The translations under genes were made by a program, and so were the position numbers. Shown here in pieces: positions 34,990-44,548 of a stretch of DNA of 48,097 nucleotides; position 1 is the first letter of the stretch; each line of letters begins with the position of its first letter. Below the pieces are notes generated by a model. That model ran no database searches. It saw only the letters and a list, made by a program, of their open reading frames with translations, and was not told the DNA's origin. The stretch comes from an uncultured Lachnospiraceae bacterium (GTDB lineage Bacteria > Bacillota > Clostridia > Lachnospirales > Lachnospiraceae), in the NCBI GenBank assembly GCA_947599905.1, contig CANQFR010000003.1, forward strand, positions 1-48,097, written 5' to 3'.

Positions 34990-35916
34990 TCAATATCCGG
35001 CGCCCCGGCAGTCAAAATGCATGTAATCCGGCGTGTAATGCCAGTCTCCTCCCCAGGTGAAGCCCGCTTCCTTAAAGAGTCTGACACAGAGATCATCCGG
35101 ACTGATCTTGTATGGATAATCCTGTGTGCGGTCCAGATAATTAACGCCTGCGACCGGGGTACATACCTTTTCCTCATCCGTATTGTATCCGGAAATAATA
35201 TAAGGATTATAAAGCGGATTGATATTAACGGCAAGTCCCCTCGCGTGATAAGAGAGACTGTCCGTGTTGGCTACGGTTCGGAAGTTAAAACACGATGTGT
35301 TATTATCCGAGCTGGATGCCTCGTCGTCTGCGTCATATTCGTCTACCAGAACCATTTTCTCAATCGGGTAGCGCGCCTCATAAAGCTGGCGGAAAATGGA
35401 AAGGAGAACGTCGGTAATACGATAGTTACTGATCATCTCGCCCACGTGAATATTACCATCCAGGTCATAATGAAGCATCTGCATATACCGCAGATCTTCC
35501 CGTGAAACCGGGCAGCCCTCCCGGTAAGACTTTCCATTGATTCTCGCAAATGTCGTATCATCCAGAGGCGTCTGCCAGAAGAGCGCATCTGCTCCAATCG
35601 AGGCGACCTGCTCTTCTGTAAGGATTTGGCCTGGAGTGATATCAATCAGTGCATTTCCCGTGTTTTGGGACCCCGACGGGTCCAGCGACGCGACCATAGT
35701 CTCTTTCTCTACCGGCAGCGGTCCTTCCTGCCCATTTGTTCCGTCAGAAGTAATAATATCAATCTTGATCATGGGCGCTGACGGATCAAACGTTTGTCTC
35801 GGGTCGATGAATCTCAGTACATCTCCATCCGAGCATCCGGTCAGGCTCAATCCCAGCAGCAAAATCGCTGCCGTTCTGATAAAACTACGATCTCTGGCTT
35901 TTTTCAGCTTGAGCAT
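34990..35916 (-). CDS. M15-family D,D-carboxypeptidase-like lipoprotein (VanY-like)
   Basis: LSLTGCSD lipobox; NTSCFNFRTVANTDSLSYHARGLAVNINPLYNPY and GFTWGGDWHYTPDYMHFDC metal-ligand motifs. Confidence 0.82.
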   Translation of the reverse strand: MLKLKKARDRSFIRTAAILLLGLSLTGCSDGDVLRFIDPRQTFDPSAPMIKIDIITSDGTNGQEGPLPVEKETMVASLDPSGSQNTGNALIDITPGQILTEEQVASIGADALFWQTPLDDTTFARINGKSYREGCPVSREDLRYMQMLHYDLDGNIHVGEMISNYRITDVLLSIFRQLYEARYPIEKMVLVDEYDADDEASSSDNNTSCFNFRTVANTDSLSYHARGLAVNINPLYNPYIISGYNTDEEKVCTPVAGVNYLDRTQDYPYKISPDDLCVRLFKEAGFTWGGDWHYTPDYMHFDCRGAGY

Positions 35917-37423
35917 ATATTTCTTTTAACCCCCTGCGGTCTGTTTTGCCGTTCGCATTTTTCGGCATTTGTTCAAGACGGATATACCTGTTCGGCATCA
36001 TATAACGCGGAACCCTGGCCGCGATACCGTTTGAAAGCAGTTTCGAATCGAGTTTTTCAGCGGCCGTATAAAGGAGCAGAATCATCTGCTTCTCCTCGTT
36101 ATAGACGCAGACACACTCATTGATTTCCGGAATCAGCGCGGCAGCTGCCTCGATTTCGCCCAGTTCGATTCGATAACCCATTCGCTTGACCTGAAAATCT
36201 TTTCGGCCATGATAGACGATATTTCCATCCGCATCATAGGACGCGATATCACCTGTACGGTAGAAACGCTCCGTTGCATCAGATGAAATCTTCAGGGAAA
36301 TAAAGCGTTCTTCTGTCTTTTCCTGATCCTTATAATATCCAAGCGACAAAGCCGCGCCGCCGATACAAAGCTCTCCTGCGGTATCTTCCCCGGGATGGAC
36401 AGGGCGTCCGTTGTCATCCAGAATCAAAGCTTTGACATTCCCGCAGGCATGTCCGATCGGAAGACGCTCATCATCCTCAAAGTCCCTGATCAGCTCAAAA
36501 AAGAGACTGACATGGGTTTCTGTTGAACCATACATATTCACATACCGCGCATCCGGCAGATACCGTCTCCAGTAGTTTAAGTATTTGACCGGCATGACCT
36601 CTCCGATAAAGAAAATATAACGGAGGAACCGGGGCTGCTGCGTATCAAAGCCGTTCAGCCGGGCAACAACCGTCAGTGCGGACGGAACCCAGAAAACAGA
36701 GGTTACATGGTTATCGTTCAGGCAGTTAATCAGCCGGGCCGGCGAAGAGAAATATTCCTGCGGAATGATATATGTACTGCAGCCAAAACGAAGCGGAACA
36801 AAAATATCATGAAGCGATATCACAAAATGGAACGGCACCTGGCTGCCCAGAACATCTTCCGGCACATAAGGAAATACCTTCTCAAGCCAGCAGAGGTTAT
36901 TAATGATCATACGGTGACAGCCCATTACCCCTTTTGGAACTCCTGTCGAGCCGCTGGTGAACAAAATATAAAGCGAATCAGTTTCCTTACAGCTGCTTCG
37001 GATCCGGGCCAGGAGTTTTGGATCCTCCGGCGTTTCGCTTATTTCCTCATAATCCCAGACCGGACATGTAAGCCTAATCAGTTCAGTCAGATGGCGGCTG
37101 CCCGGTTCCGTGACCACAGCAGCCGGATCGAGTACAGAAAGAATCGTCCGGATACGCTGCTCCGGCATCGAAGTATCAATCGGACAATAACAGCACCCGC
37201 CGTACAGTATGCCAAGAATGGCGACAGCCATAGACGCGCTCTTTTCCATAAAGACAGCCACCGGCCGACCAAAAGCTTGCAGGCTTCCGATCCGGCTGCC
37301 GATGGCCCTCGCTGTGCGTATGGCTTCTGAAAAAGTATACGTACGTTCTGGGTCGCTGTAAACACACCGGTCAGGATAAGAGACCGCTGTCTCTTCCAGA
37401 AATTCCAGAACACTATTTTTCAT
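35885..37423 (-). CDS. AMP-forming adenylation enzyme (DltA-like / NRPS A-domain-like ligase)
   Basis: LYILFTSGSTGVPKGVMG, YVNMYGSTETHVS, GELCIGGAALSLGYYKD, YRTGDIASYDADGNIVYHGRKDFQVKRMGYRIELGEIE, NANGKTDRRGL. Confidence 0.9.
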   Translation of the reverse strand: MKNSVLEFLEETAVSYPDRCVYSDPERTYTFSEAIRTARAIGSRIGSLQAFGRPVAVFMEKSASMAVAILGILYGGCCYCPIDTSMPEQRIRTILSVLDPAAVVTEPGSRHLTELIRLTCPVWDYEEISETPEDPKLLARIRSSCKETDSLYILFTSGSTGVPKGVMGCHRMIINNLCWLEKVFPYVPEDVLGSQVPFHFVISLHDIFVPLRFGCSTYIIPQEYFSSPARLINCLNDNHVTSVFWVPSALTVVARLNGFDTQQPRFLRYIFFIGEVMPVKYLNYWRRYLPDARYVNMYGSTETHVSLFFELIRDFEDDERLPIGHACGNVKALILDDNGRPVHPGEDTAGELCIGGAALSLGYYKDQEKTEERFISLKISSDATERFYRTGDIASYDADGNIVYHGRKDFQVKRMGYRIELGEIEAAAALIPEINECVCVYNEEKQMILLLYTAAEKLDSKLLSNGIAARVPRYMMPNRYIRLEQMPKNANGKTDRRGLKEIYAQAEKSQRS

Positions 37424-37444
37424 CCGTTAAAACCCCCGTTATTC

Positions 37445-38326
37445 CTAAGGAATTACAACATACTCGATAGCGTCGACCACGTCCTGGGTGGTATAGACTT
37501 TTAACTGCGTATTTCCTGCCGTATAGGTATATGTACCGAACTGTGCCTCATCTGTATTATATGCGTCACCGTAAACAGAAAGAACATCCGTCTTTGTGGA
37601 ACCGATCCTGATGCCTTCCGGTGTCGAGATGGATGCATCGAAGATATATACCGATTCAACGCAGTCTATGTTGTTTACAGGAGAGGTGCTGATTTCAAAT
37701 CCCGGATAGGTGTAGACCCGGGCCATACCCTGATAAGCGCAGCTTTCCTGCTCAAAAACATCCGTCGGATCCCCGAGCGCCGCGAGGATCGGCGCGACTT
37801 CCGCGCCCATGGTCACAGTTACGCCTCCGCCTACAAACTGATAATTGGACGGGGCTGCCGCAGGAACCGCCGCTGTTTCCGGGACTTCTGCAGGTACCGT
37901 ATCTGCCGCCGTCGTCTCTGTTTCCGCCGCCGTCGTCTCGGCTTCAGCCGTTGTCTCTTCAGGCGTCGTCTCTGCTTCAGTTGCAGTTGCCGCGCCTGTG
38001 GTTTCCTCAGCCGCAGTTGTTTCCTCAGCCGCAGTTGTTTCCTCCGACGAAGTCTCCGCCGCGGTTGCCTTGCTTTCCGCACTCTCCGGCTTCTTGGCGG
38101 CGGTCGTTTCCGCGGTTTTTGATGCTTTCTCTGCCGCCGTGGTTTCTTCCGCGGCAGTCGTCTCTGCTTCTGGGGCCGCCGTCGCAGCGGCAGCGGCTTC
38201 TGTAGCCGCCTTTGCGCTGTTTCCTGCTTCCGCGCCCGTATTCGACGAAGCGCAGGAAGTTGCCAGAAGTGCAGCCGTAACCATCGCACAGGTGCATGTT
38301 GCCAGATATTTTACCGATTTTTTCAT
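37445..38326 (-). CDS. secreted lipoprotein-like protein with Ala/Thr/Glu-rich linker and C-terminal globular domain
   Basis: MKKSVKYLATCTCAMVTAALLATSCAS signal; long (T/A/E)-rich linker; C-terminal YQFVGGGVTVTMGAEVAPILAALGDPTDVFEQESC... domain. Confidence 0.8.
   Translation of the reverse strand: MKKSVKYLATCTCAMVTAALLATSCASSNTGAEAGNSAKAATEAAAAATAAPEAETTAAEETTAAEKASKTAETTAAKKPESAESKATAAETSSEETTAAEETTAAEETTGAATATEAETTPEETTAEAETTAAETETTAADTVPAEVPETAAVPAAAPSNYQFVGGGVTVTMGAEVAPILAALGDPTDVFEQESCAYQGMARVYTYPGFEISTSPVNNIDCVESVYIFDASISTPEGIRIGSTKTDVLSVYGDAYNTDEAQFGTYTYTAGNTQLKVYTTQDVVDAIEYVVIP
38001..38044 (-). repeat. 18-bp tandem repeat, about 2.4 copies, in the linker
   Basis: gtttcctcagccgcagtt repeated at 38001-38018 and 38019-38036, then gtttcctc. 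Confidence 0.85.
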
Positions 38327-38340
38327 AATAAATCTCCCCG

Positions 38341-39405
38341 TCATTCTTCTGTTGTGAATTGTTTCAGATAGCCGAACTGCGCAAACTCCTCTTCCTGCTG
38401 TGCTTTCATGCTGTCATAAAACAATCCTTTCTCAGCCCAGACAGCGGCAAGTTCCGCGTCGTCACGATGGTCATCCGCCCCGGCCCCAAGCAGGAACGGC
38501 CCCAGATACCGGGACAGCTTCTCCGCGCCGTAGACGTTCATATGCAGTCCGCCGTCGTAAGTATCCTGCGAAAAGTCAATGCCGATTTCATCAGCTGCCT
38601 CAAGGCAGTTGATATACTGAAGATTGTGCTCCGATGCATATTCCTCGATCTGTACCTCCCACTGGTCATACCATGCTGGATAAAGGGACGGCGCTTTCAT
38701 CAGGATCAGCTGAATTCCGTTATTTTCGCAGAGAGCACGTATTCTCTCCAGATACTCCCACGAGCGGGGATCAAAGGAATAATCGGACCTGCGGCGCTCT
38801 ACCGGCAGATCTCCCGCCGGTCTTATGTCCGCCCGGAGGTAATACCCGTTATGGGCTACCTTTCCGCTCTTCATAAAATAAGTCAGATCGTCCGCTTCAA
38901 GTTCTGCAAAACGGGAATGGAACCGCAGGATCGGGAAAATGTATTCCATCATATGTTCATCTTCCATCATGGTTGCGCGGATTGCATTCCATTTGGAAGC
39001 GGACCAGCGCATGCCATCCAGCGTCATGCGGTTGTAGCTTTCATTATTCTGGTCGAACTGCTGCATAGCTGAGACATTAAAGACAACGACGCCGGGCGTC
39101 TCGTACTTCAGCGTGTCCTCCAGAATATAATAAGACTGGGCGATCAGCTGCTGCGCGTTGCCTCGGATATAACTGGTAATGCCGAATTCCCGCCAGAGCA
39201 CAATCGGCGAAATGTTTTCGTAAACTTCGCAGTTCCCGAGAAACACTACATCATGAGGCGTCGTCTCTTCATAGTATTCGGAGGTAAGATTCCCTTCAAC
39301 GACCTGGCCCATATATTTGGGCATCAGCAGTCTCTGAAGTCCGGCGATCACAGTTACGCCAACCGCCGCCAGAAGCAGAACACAGACCGGTTTTTTCCAT
39401 CTCAT
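38341..39405 (-). CDS. SGNH/GDSL-hydrolase-like membrane-anchored protein (DltD/AlgJ-like role)
   Basis: N-terminal TM; VVFLGNCEVYENISPIVLWREFG block and C-terminal DGGLHMNVYGAEKLS (DxxH); follows the MBOAT gene. Confidence 0.72.
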   Translation of the reverse strand: MRWKKPVCVLLLAAVGVTVIAGLQRLLMPKYMGQVVEGNLTSEYYEETTPHDVVFLGNCEVYENISPIVLWREFGITSYIRGNAQQLIAQSYYILEDTLKYETPGVVVFNVSAMQQFDQNNESYNRMTLDGMRWSASKWNAIRATMMEDEHMMEYIFPILRFHSRFAELEADDLTYFMKSGKVAHNGYYLRADIRPAGDLPVERRRSDYSFDPRSWEYLERIRALCENNGIQLILMKAPSLYPAWYDQWEVQIEEYASEHNLQYINCLEAADEIGIDFSQDTYDGGLHMNVYGAEKLSRYLGPFLLGAGADDHRDDAELAAVWAEKGLFYDSMKAQQEEEFAQFGYLKQFTTEE

Positions 39406-39417
39406 GGATTCCGCCTC

Positions 39418-41001
39418 CTAAAACTGATTGTAAATGAACTGGCTGGCATCGTACCCGTGTCCGTAGCATCCGGCCACAAGTACCATGACAAACAGCAGGA
39501 ATACCGCCGTGAAACGTACAACAAGCGGTCTGGCGGCGAGCTTCTGCCGGACGCTGCCGGTCTCCTGCAAAACACCAATCAGAAGCATAAGAACAAGTCC
39601 GATCGCTATCACAATGAAATCTGCGGCTGCAAGTCCCAGTTCCGCAAACCGTCCGTCAAACAACTGCGACAGGCGGCCCCTCGCAAGCAGATTGCCCAGC
39701 ATCGCAAATACGGTTCCGAACGGATAGTACTGAAACATCAGCAGGCCTGAAAACAGAAGGCCGGTACGTACTTTCTGTAACGCACCGTATACGCTTCCGT
39801 CCGTTTTCGGGAAACGCCTGTGAAAAGCGCGGTACAATTCCGTAAACTCCTGCGAAACCATCATGACAATGCCATTGGCGAGTCCCCAGAGGATAAAGCC
39901 CCAGGCCGCGCCGTGCCAGATACCGGTTACAAACCATACGATCAGATTGGCAATATATACCGGAAGCTTTTTCGTGACCTTATGAAGCCCCAGCTTTCCC
40001 GCAAAACGCGAGACGGTTCTGCAGAAACGGCTCGTCGATACCGGAAAGAAAATATACTCCCTGAACCATCCGGTCAGCGTCATATGCCATCTGCGCCATA
40101 ATTCCGAGAGATTCTTTGCCCCGAACGGTCTCTGGAAATTCTCCGGGAGCCGGATACCAAAACACTGCGACACACCGATCACAATATCCATGCAGCCCGA
40201 GAAATCAGTGTATAACTGAAGCGTATAGCCCAACATACCGACCAGGACATAGATTCCATCGTAGACATCCGGCGCTGCCGTGATCATCGCGACGGCCGGC
40301 GCAATACGGTCGGCAATGACCAGTTTCTTGAAAAAACCCCAAAGGATACGCCAGAGTCCGAAGGTAAACTGCGTTCCGTCAAAAGAATGTTCTTCGAAAA
40401 GCTCTTTCTTCAGCTGATCGAAGCGGCTGATCGGACCGCTGACCATCTGCGGGAAATAGGTGACGAAAAGCATAAACCGAAACAGATTCTTCTCCGGCCG
40501 GCACCGCCCGCGGAAGACATCGATCAGATAGCCCATCGTCTGAAAGGTATAGTAAGATATACCCAACGGAAGCACCCAGCTGATCTGCGGAATGGCTCCT
40601 TCTTCCAGATGAAAAAGCACATTCAGATTCCCGAGGAGAAAATCCGTGTACTTTAACACCGCCAATATTCCGAAATTCAGCAGGATTCCTGCTGTCATAA
40701 GACGTTTCTTATGTTTTTTAATCCGTGCCTGATACGCCTTTTTCTGTTCTTTGTCCGGCTTCTGTTCCTGAATATACGTTTGTGCCGCGCTGTCCGCCCT
40801 GCCGATCCGAAGTGCAAGAAACCACGTGCTTACCGCAGTGATCATCGGATACAGCAGATAAACAGCCCCGCCGGCCGCATAAAACAGAAAGCTGACAGCC
40901 AGAAGCAGGATCCACTGAACCCTTTTTGGAACCACATAATACAAGATGGCTGCGGCGGCGAAAAAGGCTAAAAACTCATAAGAGACCAGAGACATGATCA
41001 T
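39418..41001 (-). CDS. MBOAT-family O-acyltransferase (DltB/AlgI-like)
   Basis: FVTYFPQMVSGPISRFDQL, LWRRWHMTLTGWFREYIFFP, WFVTGIWHGAAWGFILWG (catalytic His). Confidence 0.93.
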   Translation of the reverse strand: MIMSLVSYEFLAFFAAAAILYYVVPKRVQWILLLAVSFLFYAAGGAVYLLYPMITAVSTWFLALRIGRADSAAQTYIQEQKPDKEQKKAYQARIKKHKKRLMTAGILLNFGILAVLKYTDFLLGNLNVLFHLEEGAIPQISWVLPLGISYYTFQTMGYLIDVFRGRCRPEKNLFRFMLFVTYFPQMVSGPISRFDQLKKELFEEHSFDGTQFTFGLWRILWGFFKKLVIADRIAPAVAMITAAPDVYDGIYVLVGMLGYTLQLYTDFSGCMDIVIGVSQCFGIRLPENFQRPFGAKNLSELWRRWHMTLTGWFREYIFFPVSTSRFCRTVSRFAGKLGLHKVTKKLPVYIANLIVWFVTGIWHGAAWGFILWGLANGIVMMVSQEFTELYRAFHRRFPKTDGSVYGALQKVRTGLLFSGLLMFQYYPFGTVFAMLGNLLARGRLSQLFDGRFAELGLAAADFIVIAIGLVLMLLIGVLQETGSVRQKLAARPLVVRFTAVFLLFVMVLVAGCYGHGYDASQFIYNQF

Positions 41002-41228
41002 TCATCCTCTTTCAGCCGGCCGATCAGACTCATCATCGCTTCCACGGAATTAAAATTCTCGGGAATGATGTCCTCAGACGGGATGGATACATCAAATACA
41101 TCGCGGATCTGCGTGACAAGCATCACCAACTCAAAGGAAGTCAGGATCTCGTCATCAACCAGATGATCATTCGTTTCATAGTCTGCATCCGGATTGATAT
41201 CGTTCAGAATCTCAAGCAGTTCATCCAT
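40998..41228 (-). CDS. acyl carrier protein (DltC-like)
   Basis: 76-aa acidic protein with DDEILTSFELVMLVTQIRDVFDVSIPSEDI phosphopantetheine-site pattern; ATGA overlap with the MBOAT gene. Confidence 0.85.
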   Translation of the reverse strand: MDELLEILNDINPDADYETNDHLVDDEILTSFELVMLVTQIRDVFDVSIPSEDIIPENFNSVEAMMSLIGRLKEDE

Positions 41229-41246
41229 GTCATCAAACTCCTTTCA

Positions 41247-42326
41247 TCAGGGTGTGCGCGGATAGAGGGAGCGGTCAAACGCAAAACAATTCCCGTGTTT
41301 TGCTGAATAGTCCTGCATCTGTGCATCCGTCCACAGGCAGAAATACCCGCCCGCCCGTCTCGGCGTCGCGTCGAAATGATACCAGTTGCCGTCGCTTAGC
41401 TGGACAAGATTCCAATAATGGCCGTTATCCGTATAACGGAGCATCTCGATGCACGGAATACCGCACCGCATCAGAAGCGCAGCCGATACGGAATAATAGA
41501 TGAAGCAGTCCCCATGACGTCTGCGGAATCCGTTATAGGCTTCCTGAACCCAGTCCCTTGTCGCCGCATGTCCGCTGTATGTAAAGTTCCCGCGGACCCA
41601 TGCATATATCGCCTCTGCTTTCTGCCGGTCCGTCATCGAGTCATTCACGATTCCAGCCAGAATGGTATCCGCCATTGCGGAAACGGTCTGCCACATCTCC
41701 TCTTGTTCCGGCGCTACCTGCGTAATCGGCTTATAGGGCCAGGCGGCCGCACCGGAACTGTCAAACGTGTAAGTGACGCCGCCGACCGTACGCTGCACAT
41801 CATGCGCCATCGCTCCGCTGACCTCATCCAGATAATAGACTTTTCCGTCAACCTCAAGCAGACCGGTCTTCATATATCCGGTCTCATCAAAATAATATGT
41901 CTCTCCGTTAATCTGTTTCCAGCCGTTCGTTACATAGCTGCCGTCGGCAAGACGGTAATACCAGCCCACACGATCCAGCAGCCAGCCGGTATAACTGTCC
42001 GAAAGCCTGTGCGCGGCGCCCGTTGAATCAAACTGCCAGACTCCACCGGCGATGGATGTGGTGCAGGCTGCGACCATGGTTCCGTCTTCCGGACGAAGAT
42101 AATAAATCGAGCCGTTATCCACCAGCCACTCGCGGTGCGCGTATCCGTCCGCATCAAAATAAAACCAGGGGCCGTTCGCCTCGTCCCAGTACCATCCGAT
42201 TACATCGTTTCCATTATCATCACGGCATCTGAGGCCGTTCTCATCGCTGTACAGGGTGTCCGCAAAAGATGAAATTCCAAATAAACATGAAAAAACAAAT
42301 AAAAGAAATGATAACCGTATTTTCAT
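41247..42326 (-). CDS. secreted cell-wall-binding-repeat protein with transglutaminase-like domain
   Basis: Signal peptide; GWYWDEANGPWFYFDADGYAHREW and similar repeats; HGDCFIYYSVSAALLMRCGIPC...GHYWNLVQL...YHFDATP (Cys-His-Asp triad). Confidence 0.87.
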   Translation of the reverse strand: MKIRLSFLLFVFSCLFGISSFADTLYSDENGLRCRDDNGNDVIGWYWDEANGPWFYFDADGYAHREWLVDNGSIYYLRPEDGTMVAACTTSIAGGVWQFDSTGAAHRLSDSYTGWLLDRVGWYYRLADGSYVTNGWKQINGETYYFDETGYMKTGLLEVDGKVYYLDEVSGAMAHDVQRTVGGVTYTFDSSGAAAWPYKPITQVAPEQEEMWQTVSAMADTILAGIVNDSMTDRQKAEAIYAWVRGNFTYSGHAATRDWVQEAYNGFRRRHGDCFIYYSVSAALLMRCGIPCIEMLRYTDNGHYWNLVQLSDGNWYHFDATPRRAGGYFCLWTDAQMQDYSAKHGNCFAFDRSLYPRTP

Positions 42327-42391
42327 AAACTCTTATCCGTCCTGTTCGTATTGGCCTTCGTAACAGCCTGATTAAATTGTACACAAGCATA

Positions 42392-42420
42392 AATATAGCA
42401 TTATTAAGAATAGATGTCAA
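42392..42420 (-). promoter_or_regulatory. sigmaA promoter of the Dlt-like operon
   Basis: Reverse strand TTGACA, 17 nt, TATATT. Confidence 0.75.
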
Positions 42421-42423
42421 TAT

Positions 42424-43680
42424 TTATTTGGCCTTCCCGAAGTCCATACGCACCTGTTCCAGCAACGGTTTCCTTGTCTTCTTCCTCGTAATCTCAACCA
42501 GTCCGAGTCTGGTCATATCGACGACGTTTGTCTTGACCGGATCTTCCAGACAGTGCTGCGTCAGGCACTGCATGACTTCTTCGCGGTCGGCCGCGGCTTC
42601 CATATTAATGAAATCCACGACAATGATCCCGGAGAGGTTCCTGAGGCGGAGCTGCCGCGCAGTCTCCTTTGCGGCTTCCAGGTTGATCATCCGCACGGTG
42701 TCGCGCATGGTCTTCCGGCCCGTGAATTTGCCGGTATTTACGTCGATGACTGTCATGGCCTCGGTCTGTTCGATGACAAGATAAGCCCCGGAAGCAAGCC
42801 AGACACGCTTCTGGAGGGCGTCATGCAGGTTTTTCTCAATGGAGTACAGCTTATCAAGGGAAACCAGCGGATCGCTGTAAAGCCTGAGTCTCCCGGCATG
42901 CTCCGGCTGTTCGCGCGTCAGATACCCGTTCAGCCTCTGAAAAATGTCTTCGTTGTCGGTCAGGATCTCATCGGCTGTCTGCGCGTCGCGGTCACGCAGC
43001 CTCGCCACATACGAAGGTTCCTCCTCATACAGAAGGCTGAAACAGGTCCGATGCGGCGCAGCCGCAAGGATCTGCTCCATGCGGTCTGTCAGCCGCCTGA
43101 CCTCATCGAGAATCTGATCCGGCTGCGCCTCATAGGCGCCGGTCCGAACGATCAGACCAAAGCGCTCCTTTTTCGCGGGCAGAAGGAATTGTGTCATCTG
43201 CTTCTTCCATGCGTTATCGCCGATCTTTCCGGAAAAACGGATGTAATTCTTATCGCCGGCCGGTGCGGCCGACAGGACGCAGAAACGGCCGGTCAGGGTA
43301 AGTTCCGCGGTAAGCACCGGATCCTTTGTTTTCACCGCGTCCTTCAGCACCTGAACGACGATCTCATCGCCGGGACGTAAGGGGCGCTGCGTTCTTTCGG
43401 CCGAAGGCTGCGATTCTCTGTCTCCGGAAAACTGCGCCGGCATCTGAGACGCAAGCCACGGCACCGGATTGGTGTCCAGACTGTAATAGCCGGTGACACC
43501 GCCGCCCAGATCCACAAAGGCGGCGTTGATGTTTTTCACCACATCTTTGACTTTCCCGATGTAAATATTTCCAAGACCGGACGGCTGCGGATCTTCGAAA
43601 TCTAGCTGAAGCGCTTTTCTGTCATCCATAAACGCGGTCAGGATCCGGCCGTCATACCGGGTAATGATCAGTTTATTCAA
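42424..43680 (-). CDS. ribonuclease E/G family protein
   Basis: LNKLIITRYDGRILTAF, SGLGNIYIGKVKDVVKNINAAFVDLG, MTVIDVNTGKF, NLSGIIVVDFINM; probable TTG start 43680, ATG 43698 also possible. Confidence 0.92.
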   Translation of the reverse strand: MNKLIITRYDGRILTAFMDDRKALQLDFEDPQPSGLGNIYIGKVKDVVKNINAAFVDLGGGVTGYYSLDTNPVPWLASQMPAQFSGDRESQPSAERTQRPLRPGDEIVVQVLKDAVKTKDPVLTAELTLTGRFCVLSAAPAGDKNYIRFSGKIGDNAWKKQMTQFLLPAKKERFGLIVRTGAYEAQPDQILDEVRRLTDRMEQILAAAPHRTCFSLLYEEEPSYVARLRDRDAQTADEILTDNEDIFQRLNGYLTREQPEHAGRLRLYSDPLVSLDKLYSIEKNLHDALQKRVWLASGAYLVIEQTEAMTVIDVNTGKFTGRKTMRDTVRMINLEAAKETARQLRLRNLSGIIVVDFINMEAAADREEVMQCLTQHCLEDPVKTNVVDMTRLGLVEITRKKTRKPLLEQVRMDFGKAK

Positions 43681-44548
43681 TTTCCTCCCCCAGTTCATCA
43701 AGCGGCGCGAGCTTCCGGCCGGCGTCTTCTCCGGCCGTCACGTCCGCATAAACTTCTTCTCGTTCGGTCTGGAAGGCAAACGGCGGCAGTTCCCGAGCCA
43801 GATACGCATAGAATGCTTCCATGACAAGTTCCGGCTTGACGTTATCGGTACTGCCGGTGCAAACCTGCATGAAAACAGCGTCCGAAGGCTGATTCACCGC
43901 ACCAGAGACGATCACCGGAAGACTTCTTCCATCCGAGGCCGCTGCAGCGGAAAACCTCCGGTCTGCCCCGAAAACCGATGCCAGCTGCCGCCCGGAAACG
44001 CAGTTCGTTGTCGCCGTCTGACATTCCCCTGCAGGCTCGGCGCATACCCGCTCCAGCCGGTAAATGAGCGGCTTGAGATCCATTTCTTTCTCGCCGCTCT
44101 TGGTCTTCTTCGTAACCGGAATCTCCGGCTGAGCGTAGAATTCCGCGAGCGCCTGAAAGAATGCTTCCATATCTTCCGGCTCTTTCCCCGGGCGGAACGC
44201 CAGCAGGTAATCGGCCGCCGCCACAAGCGACATGGCGCTTCTGGCATCATCGGAGAGTTTTCGCCAGGAAAGAACCTCCGTGCCTTCCGACATCACCGCG
44301 TTCAGCCGGCGGACCATTTCCGCCGAACTGTCCGTCGAATTCACTTCAATGTCGAGATATTCGCCGTTGCTTAAAAGGCCGACGCCGAGGGGCGCGGCAA
44401 AGGACATGATCTGATGGGGGCTGAAACCGCCACTGTAGCAGATGTCAACCTCCGCCCTGCGCATGACCTTCTGGAAATACCGCATGATATCCAGATGTCC
44501 GATGAATTTCATGGCGCCCTGCTTGCGGAATTTAATTCTTATCTTCAA
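43673..44548 (-). CDS. DUF2344 radical-SAM-associated protein (TIGR03936-like)
   Basis: LKIRIKFRKQGAMKFIGHLDIMRYFQKVMRRAEVDICYSGGFSPHQIMSFAAPL; TTG 44548 (or GTG 44557) start. Confidence 0.88.
   Translation of the reverse strand: MKIRIKFRKQGAMKFIGHLDIMRYFQKVMRRAEVDICYSGGFSPHQIMSFAAPLGVGLLSNGEYLDIEVNSTDSSAEMVRRLNAVMSEGTEVLSWRKLSDDARSAMSLVAAADYLLAFRPGKEPEDMEAFFQALAEFYAQPEIPVTKKTKSGEKEMDLKPLIYRLERVCAEPAGECQTATTNCVSGRQLASVFGADRRFSAAAASDGRSLPVIVSGAVNQPSDAVFMQVCTGSTDNVKPELVMEAFYAYLARELPPFAFQTEREEVYADVTAGEDAGRKLAPLDELGEEIE

Follow-up and report, generated by a model that had tools for sequence, protein, structure and literature searches.

A putative Dlt-type acylation cassette with a cysteine in its SGNH protein, in Clostridia and some Bacilli

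Background

When a bacterium carries a ligase, a carrier protein, an MBOAT acyltransferase and an SGNH-fold protein in one operon, is this ordinary teichoic acid D-alanylation (dltABCD) with its genes shuffled, or another acylation system? The question is raised by the stretch of DNA analysed here (the window, 48,097 nucleotides), which is contig C3 of the genome of an uncultured Lachnospiraceae bacterium. This genome is 2.83 Mb long and 88.7% complete, a scope that applies to every absence reported for it below, and its named nearest relatives are Lachnospiraceae metagenome assemblies. On the minus strand of the window, at 34990-42326, lies a seven-gene operon flanked by rng and rplU. We consider it fairly probable that this operon encodes a Dlt-type, carrier-dependent acylation machine for the cell exterior that does not perform D-alanylation.

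The first-pass annotation had described seven tightly packed, overlapping minus-strand reading frames behind a promoter, and all of these were recovered in place:

42392..42420, minus strand: sigma-70-type promoter, TTGACA-17-TATATT, matching 11 of 12 consensus positions, with an extended -10 (a consensus match only)
41247..42326, minus strand: TG, a secreted transglutaminase-like protein with wall/choline-binding repeats (Pfam, conserved residues)
40998..41228, minus strand: acyl carrier protein (ACP), with phosphopantetheine Ser31 in ILTSFEL
39418..41001, minus strand: MBOAT O-acyltransferase, DltB-like, with invariant His306 and His363 (Pfam, PDB match, conservation)
39421..39438, minus strand: acyl-shuttle motif FIYNQF of the DltX type, fused to the C-terminus of the MBOAT (weak PF12459 match; Tyr524 conserved)
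38341..39405, minus strand: predicted membrane-anchored SGNH-fold acyltransferase, with Cys replacing the catalytic Ser (sequence, AlphaFold model)
39229..39231, minus strand: codon of SGNH Cys59 (GNCE motif), at the SGNH Ser position
37445..38344, minus strand (start may be 38326): LIPO, a lipoprotein with a low-complexity linker and a conserved beta-rich domain, Cys202 lying in an SCA loop
35885..37423, minus strand: adenylation-domain (A-domain) ligase, code VIHWFIMVSK (Pfam AMP-binding, code reading)
36821..36823, minus strand: codon of ligase Val201, which corresponds to Asp235, the residue of A domains that binds the alpha-amino group
34990..35916, minus strand: M15_4 (VanY-like) lipoprotein peptidase, lipobox LTGC, with Asn231 at the predicted zinc-ligand Asp

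The ACP and MBOAT genes overlap, as do the SGNH and lipoprotein genes and the ligase and M15 genes; the remaining gaps measure 12-21 bp. Choline_bind_3 and Transglut_core, MBOAT, AMP-binding and Peptidase_M15_4 were matched above the Pfam cut-offs, PP-binding (18.5 against 20.8 bits) and Lipase_GDSL_2 below them. The identity of the ACP is nevertheless secured by its serine, invariant in 78/78 orthologues, and that of the SGNH protein by its AlphaFold model (pLDDT 93.7). At probability 1.0 this model matches SGNH hydrolases as well as PatB and the DltD proteins of Enterococcus faecium and Streptococcus pneumoniae, with TM-scores that are low when normalised to the query.

A six-gene cassette conserved across genomes

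The operon is not a chance assembly, for both its gene content and its neighbourhood are found again in many genomes. When 61 genomes were searched with the SGNH protein, clear orthologues (at least 49% identity, near full length) turned up in 17 genomes besides the host, and in the six relatives with both sides visible the operon again lies between rng and rplU. In a scan of named genomes at least 597 stretches matched, of which 581 were relatives; Lachnospiraceae, other Clostridia, Paenibacillus and Gottfriedia are represented among the best 80.

Neighbourhoods were compared at loci selected by the SGNH orthologue alone. Across the 68 loci left after deduplication, each with 6 kb of flank on either side, we found MBOAT at 67, TG at 67, LIPO at 63, the ligase at 62, ACP at 62, a racemase gene at 33 and M15 at 12. 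An even sample of the order, in which 35 of 294 genomes (about 12%) hold an SGNH orthologue at E<=1e-80, supplied 20 loci, with MBOAT at 20, TG at 18, LIPO at 17, ACP at 15 and the ligase at 14. The conserved cassette comprises TG, the A-domain ligase, ACP, MBOAT, SGNH and the small extracellular protein LIPO, and M15 is no core member but an addition specific to the window's clade. Profile maps give TG-ligase-ACP-MBOAT-SGNH-LIPO as the usual order; in the window's clade the ligase has been relocated behind LIPO and M15 gained. One genome (G047) has all six genes in two loci, SGNH-LIPO standing apart from TG-ligase-ACP-MBOAT.

The first-pass annotation had made its proposal depend on the neighbours' occurring together elsewhere, which they do widely. 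Its description of TG and the lipoprotein as unusual partners, by contrast, has to be given up, both being core; and of the flanking enzymes that it took for odd neighbours, M15 is indeed clade-specific whereas TG is not.

Searches of the open-licence literature aimed at such a cassette found no description among the titles and abstracts listed, which is weak evidence of absence. One Lachnospiraceae genome (G069) holds two cassette copies, L083 and L086, with differing ligase codes. Thioredoxin and thioredoxin reductase-like genes lie near the cassette, just past the SGNH-adjacent gene, at L178:6327-7545 and L179:10764-11978; this may be coincidence.

A shuttle motif on the MBOAT and a cysteine in the SGNH protein

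The best PDB match of the MBOAT is DltB (6bug, 8jem), over residues 144-388, which include both conserved histidines; His306 and His363 are invariant in 83/83 orthologues. In the C-terminal FIYNQF, Phe522 and Tyr524 are present in 83/83 orthologues and the final Phe in 81/83. Anderson et al. (2025) report that in PatA the acyl group is borne by the tyrosine of this FXYXXF motif, describe DltX as an acyl carrier within Dlt, and state that all MBOAT/SGNH pathways except Dlt lack a carrier protein and use acyl-CoA (PMC12148441). Judging by its genes, the cassette unites what that study keeps apart, namely a carrier protein and an MBOAT-fused shuttle motif. In genome G000, an MBOAT fragment at C115:6068-6705 contains three in-frame TGA codons and is apparently defunct; two further MBOATs, at C202 and C20, terminate in FIYFRF and FLYFRF. 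In a relative, at L183:7522-8779, the MBOAT gene is split over two overlapping frames.

At the SGNH nucleophile position (GNCE or GDCE), cysteine is found in 87/87 orthologues, as is His288. One of the two search patterns of the named-genome scan contains this cysteine, so that part of that set is biased; the 61-genome set and the profile-based even sample are free of this bias, and there, of 20 sampled orthologues, 19 have the cysteine, the exception (L188) having serine. Serine was also read at this position in nine MBOAT-linked paralogues, and L206 reads GTSH. Neither TG nor LIPO was found at any of the Ser-type loci examined; the Cys form therefore goes with TG and LIPO. In parts of its text, a review of the SGNH family names cysteines only as disulfides (PMC9487903).

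Relation to known envelope acylation systems

With Dlt (DltA, DltC, DltB, DltX and DltD; teichoic acid D-alanylation), the cassette shares an A-domain ligase, a carrier protein, a DltB-like MBOAT with both histidines, an SGNH-fold partner and a tyrosine shuttle motif. Unlike Dlt, it has the motif fused to the MBOAT and no separate DltX gene, for which the packed operon leaves no room; it also lacks a PF04914 DltD, has SGNH Cys for Ser and a different A-domain code, and adds TG and the lipoprotein. The first-pass annotation had left room for its genes being homologues of established D-alanylation genes of lipoteichoic acid. They are not: the ligase scores 269 bits on the DltA model TIGR01734 (cut-off 559.85), and against TIGR04091, the DltB model, the MBOAT reaches 168 bits (cut-off 375). 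The ACP has its phosphopantetheine Ser conserved in 78/78 and reaches 14-22 bits on DltC models, below cut-off.

We also looked for a canonical dlt locus elsewhere, as the first-pass annotation had proposed. PF04914 had no match in the host genome at E<=10 and was not found in 13 of 15 cassette-bearing genomes, host counted. Gottfriedia endophytica and Clostridiaceae 1XD21-72 hold DltD and a canonical-code DltA at other loci, and the cassette is therefore a separate system in these two genomes. Gottfriedia endophytica has two DltD genes (G064:C12, G064:C31) beside a Cys-type cassette. In the host genome no second Dlt-like ligase was found, the sole other AMP-binding enzyme being unlike DltA, and neither PF00884 nor PF04464 gave a match; among genus mates there are PF00884 proteins 620-670 aa long.

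The O-acetyltransferases of the PatA/PatB type, together with the alginate, cellulose and SCWP systems, share with the cassette an FXYXXF motif on extra C-terminal MBOAT helices and a separate, adjacent SGNH partner. They are fed by acyl-CoA (PMC12148441), whereas the cassette supplies a ligase and an ACP and has a cysteine as its SGNH nucleophile. We also found three Ser-type, carrier-dependent relatives (L055, L188 and L206), which have a DltA-like ligase with Trp278 (code read in L055 and L206), an MBOAT with a C-terminal FIY-type tail, an SGNH protein and, in L055 and L188, a recognised ACP. They differ from the cassette in the SGNH serine and in having neither TG nor the lipoprotein, and L206 in addition has a LysA/ODC-like decarboxylase gene.

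The ligase and its acid

Ten A-domain positions read VIHWFIMVSK in the window's clade; in close relatives they read DVHWFAMVCK, and in a larger clade DAKWAGLM[SC]K. Two canonical DltAs read DLMSLCTAVK. The best matches of the ligase among solved structures are A domains of nonribosomal peptide synthetases (NRPS). In A domains that activate amino acids, Asp235 binds the alpha-amino group (PMC12283262, PMC11355689), and position 235 is aliphatic in most keto-acid A domains, with exceptions (PMC10949194). The window's clade has Val there and three other rows have Ala or Asn, with four changes on the tree. Because Asp235 is replaced by Val, a different acid is suggested for the window's clade, conceivably one without a canonically bound alpha-amino group, a proposal that we hold tentatively.

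Lys239 reads Glu in a surfactin synthetase A domain (PMC11355689). Among our loci, the ligase has a racemase gene nearby in 40 of 55 with Lys239 and in 0 of 30 with His or Gln at 239 (Fisher p 5e-12 on loci, a value that ignores the single Lys/His split on the ligase tree). Two racemase examples exceed the cut-offs of the amino acid racemase model TIGR00035 and the cysteate racemase CuyB, and the L178 protein has two candidate catalytic cysteines. With Lys239 and, often, a neighbouring racemase gene of the Asp/Glu type, the larger clade probably uses an acidic D-amino acid as its acyl group, either D-Asp or D-Glu. One Glu signature string, and glutamyl or aspartyl esters of teichoic acids, were sought in the open-licence literature and none were found. 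At L203:4918-8011 and L206:7329-12882, Dlt-like ligase clusters have a LysA/ODC-type decarboxylase-like gene adjoining the ligase (PLP decarboxylase-like, identified by Pfam in L203 and by its sequence start in L206), as if the acid were exchangeable. The first-pass annotation had mentioned neither the loss of Asp235, nor the racemase of the relatives, nor the fused DltX-like motif and the SGNH cysteine.

TG, lipoprotein and M15 peptidase

The TG residues Cys274, His303 and Asp319 are conserved in relatives, the cysteine in 77/77 aligned sequences; a sequence search against solved structures found nothing for TG. The LIPO domain, for which the model has a pLDDT of 95.5, is similar to part of B. 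anthracis 4ifa, YjgB (DUF4309) and YfeY. Its Cys202, in the SCA motif, is present in 80/81 orthologues. The Ala/Thr/Glu stretch is absent in many orthologues, several of which also lack the lipobox, and for these reasons it reads as a spacer. The linker was considered as a conserved acceptor, as the first-pass annotation had suggested in proposing that this stretch is acylated, and was rejected on the same grounds. At L039:2681-2998 the lipoprotein gene is split over two frames.

In the M15 peptidase, the motif SxHxxGxAxD reads SYHARGLAVNIN, or nearly so, in the window and in Val235 relatives, and the predicted zinc-ligand Asp is kept in relatives with an Asp235-type ligase. The clade with the Asp-to-Asn change (35224-35226) is exactly the one in which ligase position 235 is Val. 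As a predicted zinc ligand is replaced, activity of the window's copy is doubtful.

Proposed route and alternatives

Gene content, co-occurrence, residue conservation and predicted folds together suggest a route. The ligase, from its family and residues, would adenylate a carboxylic acid and load it onto the ACP. The MBOAT, given its invariant motif and two invariant histidines, would pass the acyl group across the membrane to Tyr524 of its own FIYNQF tail, which would take the role of DltX. The tail would then give the acyl group to SGNH Cys59, forming a thioester in place of the usual Ser ester, and from the SGNH protein it would reach an acceptor in the envelope. TG and the lipoprotein, each of which has a conserved cysteine of its own, would act on the acceptor side. 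Ligase, carrier, MBOAT and SGNH analogues had been recognised in the first-pass annotation, and their catalytic residues do fit a passage from carrier to MBOAT to SGNH. In a bolder version, which we rate as somewhat unlikely, a thiol relay would run from the MBOAT Tyr through the Cys59 thioester to the LIPO Cys and/or TG Cys and on to a surface amine or hydroxyl; the resulting amide or ester decoration, made with an acidic D-amino acid in most species and with some other acid in the clade of the window, would be unlike any known envelope acylation.

Several observations weigh against this picture. The 68-locus set includes close relatives, and in L190 the residue aligned with His288 is Asp. 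A few loci have no ligase and ACP nearby; when a close ligase was sought in six genomes of this kind, none was found anywhere in three of them, and there the acyl donor may differ. A keto-acid A domain can retain Asp235 (PMC10949194), which makes the code merely a guide. Moreover, the single Lys/His split on the ligase tree amounts to one independent pair and allows no statistical test, so that the link between Lys239 and the racemase is gene-context evidence only.

Shuffled but ordinary D-alanylation could account for the partial scores on the DltA and DltB models, and the operon might stand in for Dlt in a host that shows neither DltD nor a second Dlt-like ligase; however, scores far below cut-off, a code of VIHWFIMVSK against DLMSLCTAVK with Asp235 lost, the SGNH Cys, the missing PF04914 DltD and separate DltX, and the two genomes with canonical dlt elsewhere make this improbable. 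That the ligase and ACP produce a small peptide or acyl metabolite for export, the envelope enzymes being bystanders, would agree with the NRPS A domains among the ligase's structural matches, but we regard it as very improbable: no condensation, thioesterase or exporter gene was seen, an MBOAT with a shuttle tail and an SGNH protein almost always adjoin, and TG and the wall-binding repeats point outward. SGNH and transglutaminase-like folds are often hydrolases, so the two proteins might instead strip acyl groups, in editing or turnover, with Cys59 as a thiol hydrolase, and the M15 peptidase co-encoded in the window's clade would suit such a role. This is quite improbable, since the shuttle tail requires an extracellular transferase, for which SGNH is the sole candidate in nearly all loci.

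If the cassette is indeed an acylation machine for the cell exterior, what does it modify? We lean slightly towards a wall polymer rather than protein: the MBOAT-SGNH pairs known from PMC12148441 act on polysaccharides or teichoic acids. A protein acceptor, either the lipoprotein itself (invariant Cys or linker) or, via the lipoprotein, other surface proteins, seems unlikely. It would explain why the lipoprotein lies beside nearly every Cys-type SGNH, even in the detached pair of G047, and why its SCA cysteine, in a loop of a confidently modelled domain, is so well kept; but that cysteine may be merely structural, and many orthologues do without the Thr/Ala/Glu linker and some without a lipobox.

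Flanking sequences

The RNase E/G gene rng occupies 42424-43701, and rplU/prp/rpmA/obgE run from 34802 downwards, rplU having its own promoter at 34920-34892. The promoter scan was near chance overall (11 sites, where shuffled sequence gave 7.6 +/- 2.6). No Rfam family matched in the operon region.

Significance

In the published view of envelope acylation, Dlt is fed by a carrier and has a separate DltX, and the other systems are fed by acyl-CoA and bear the shuttle peptide on the MBOAT. The cassette joins the carrier-fed and fused-tail types and swaps the SGNH Ser for Cys; the Ser/Cys pair and the Tyr tail render the mechanism directly testable. Some Bacilli and about 12% of the genomes sampled from the order carry it, and on the strength of similarity it may be labelled D-alanylation there. 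This gene set of gut Clostridia and some Bacilli looks built for an acid other than D-alanine. If acidic D-amino acids are attached, their effect on surface charge would differ from that of D-alanine, which in gut bacteria would matter for host recognition and antimicrobial peptides.

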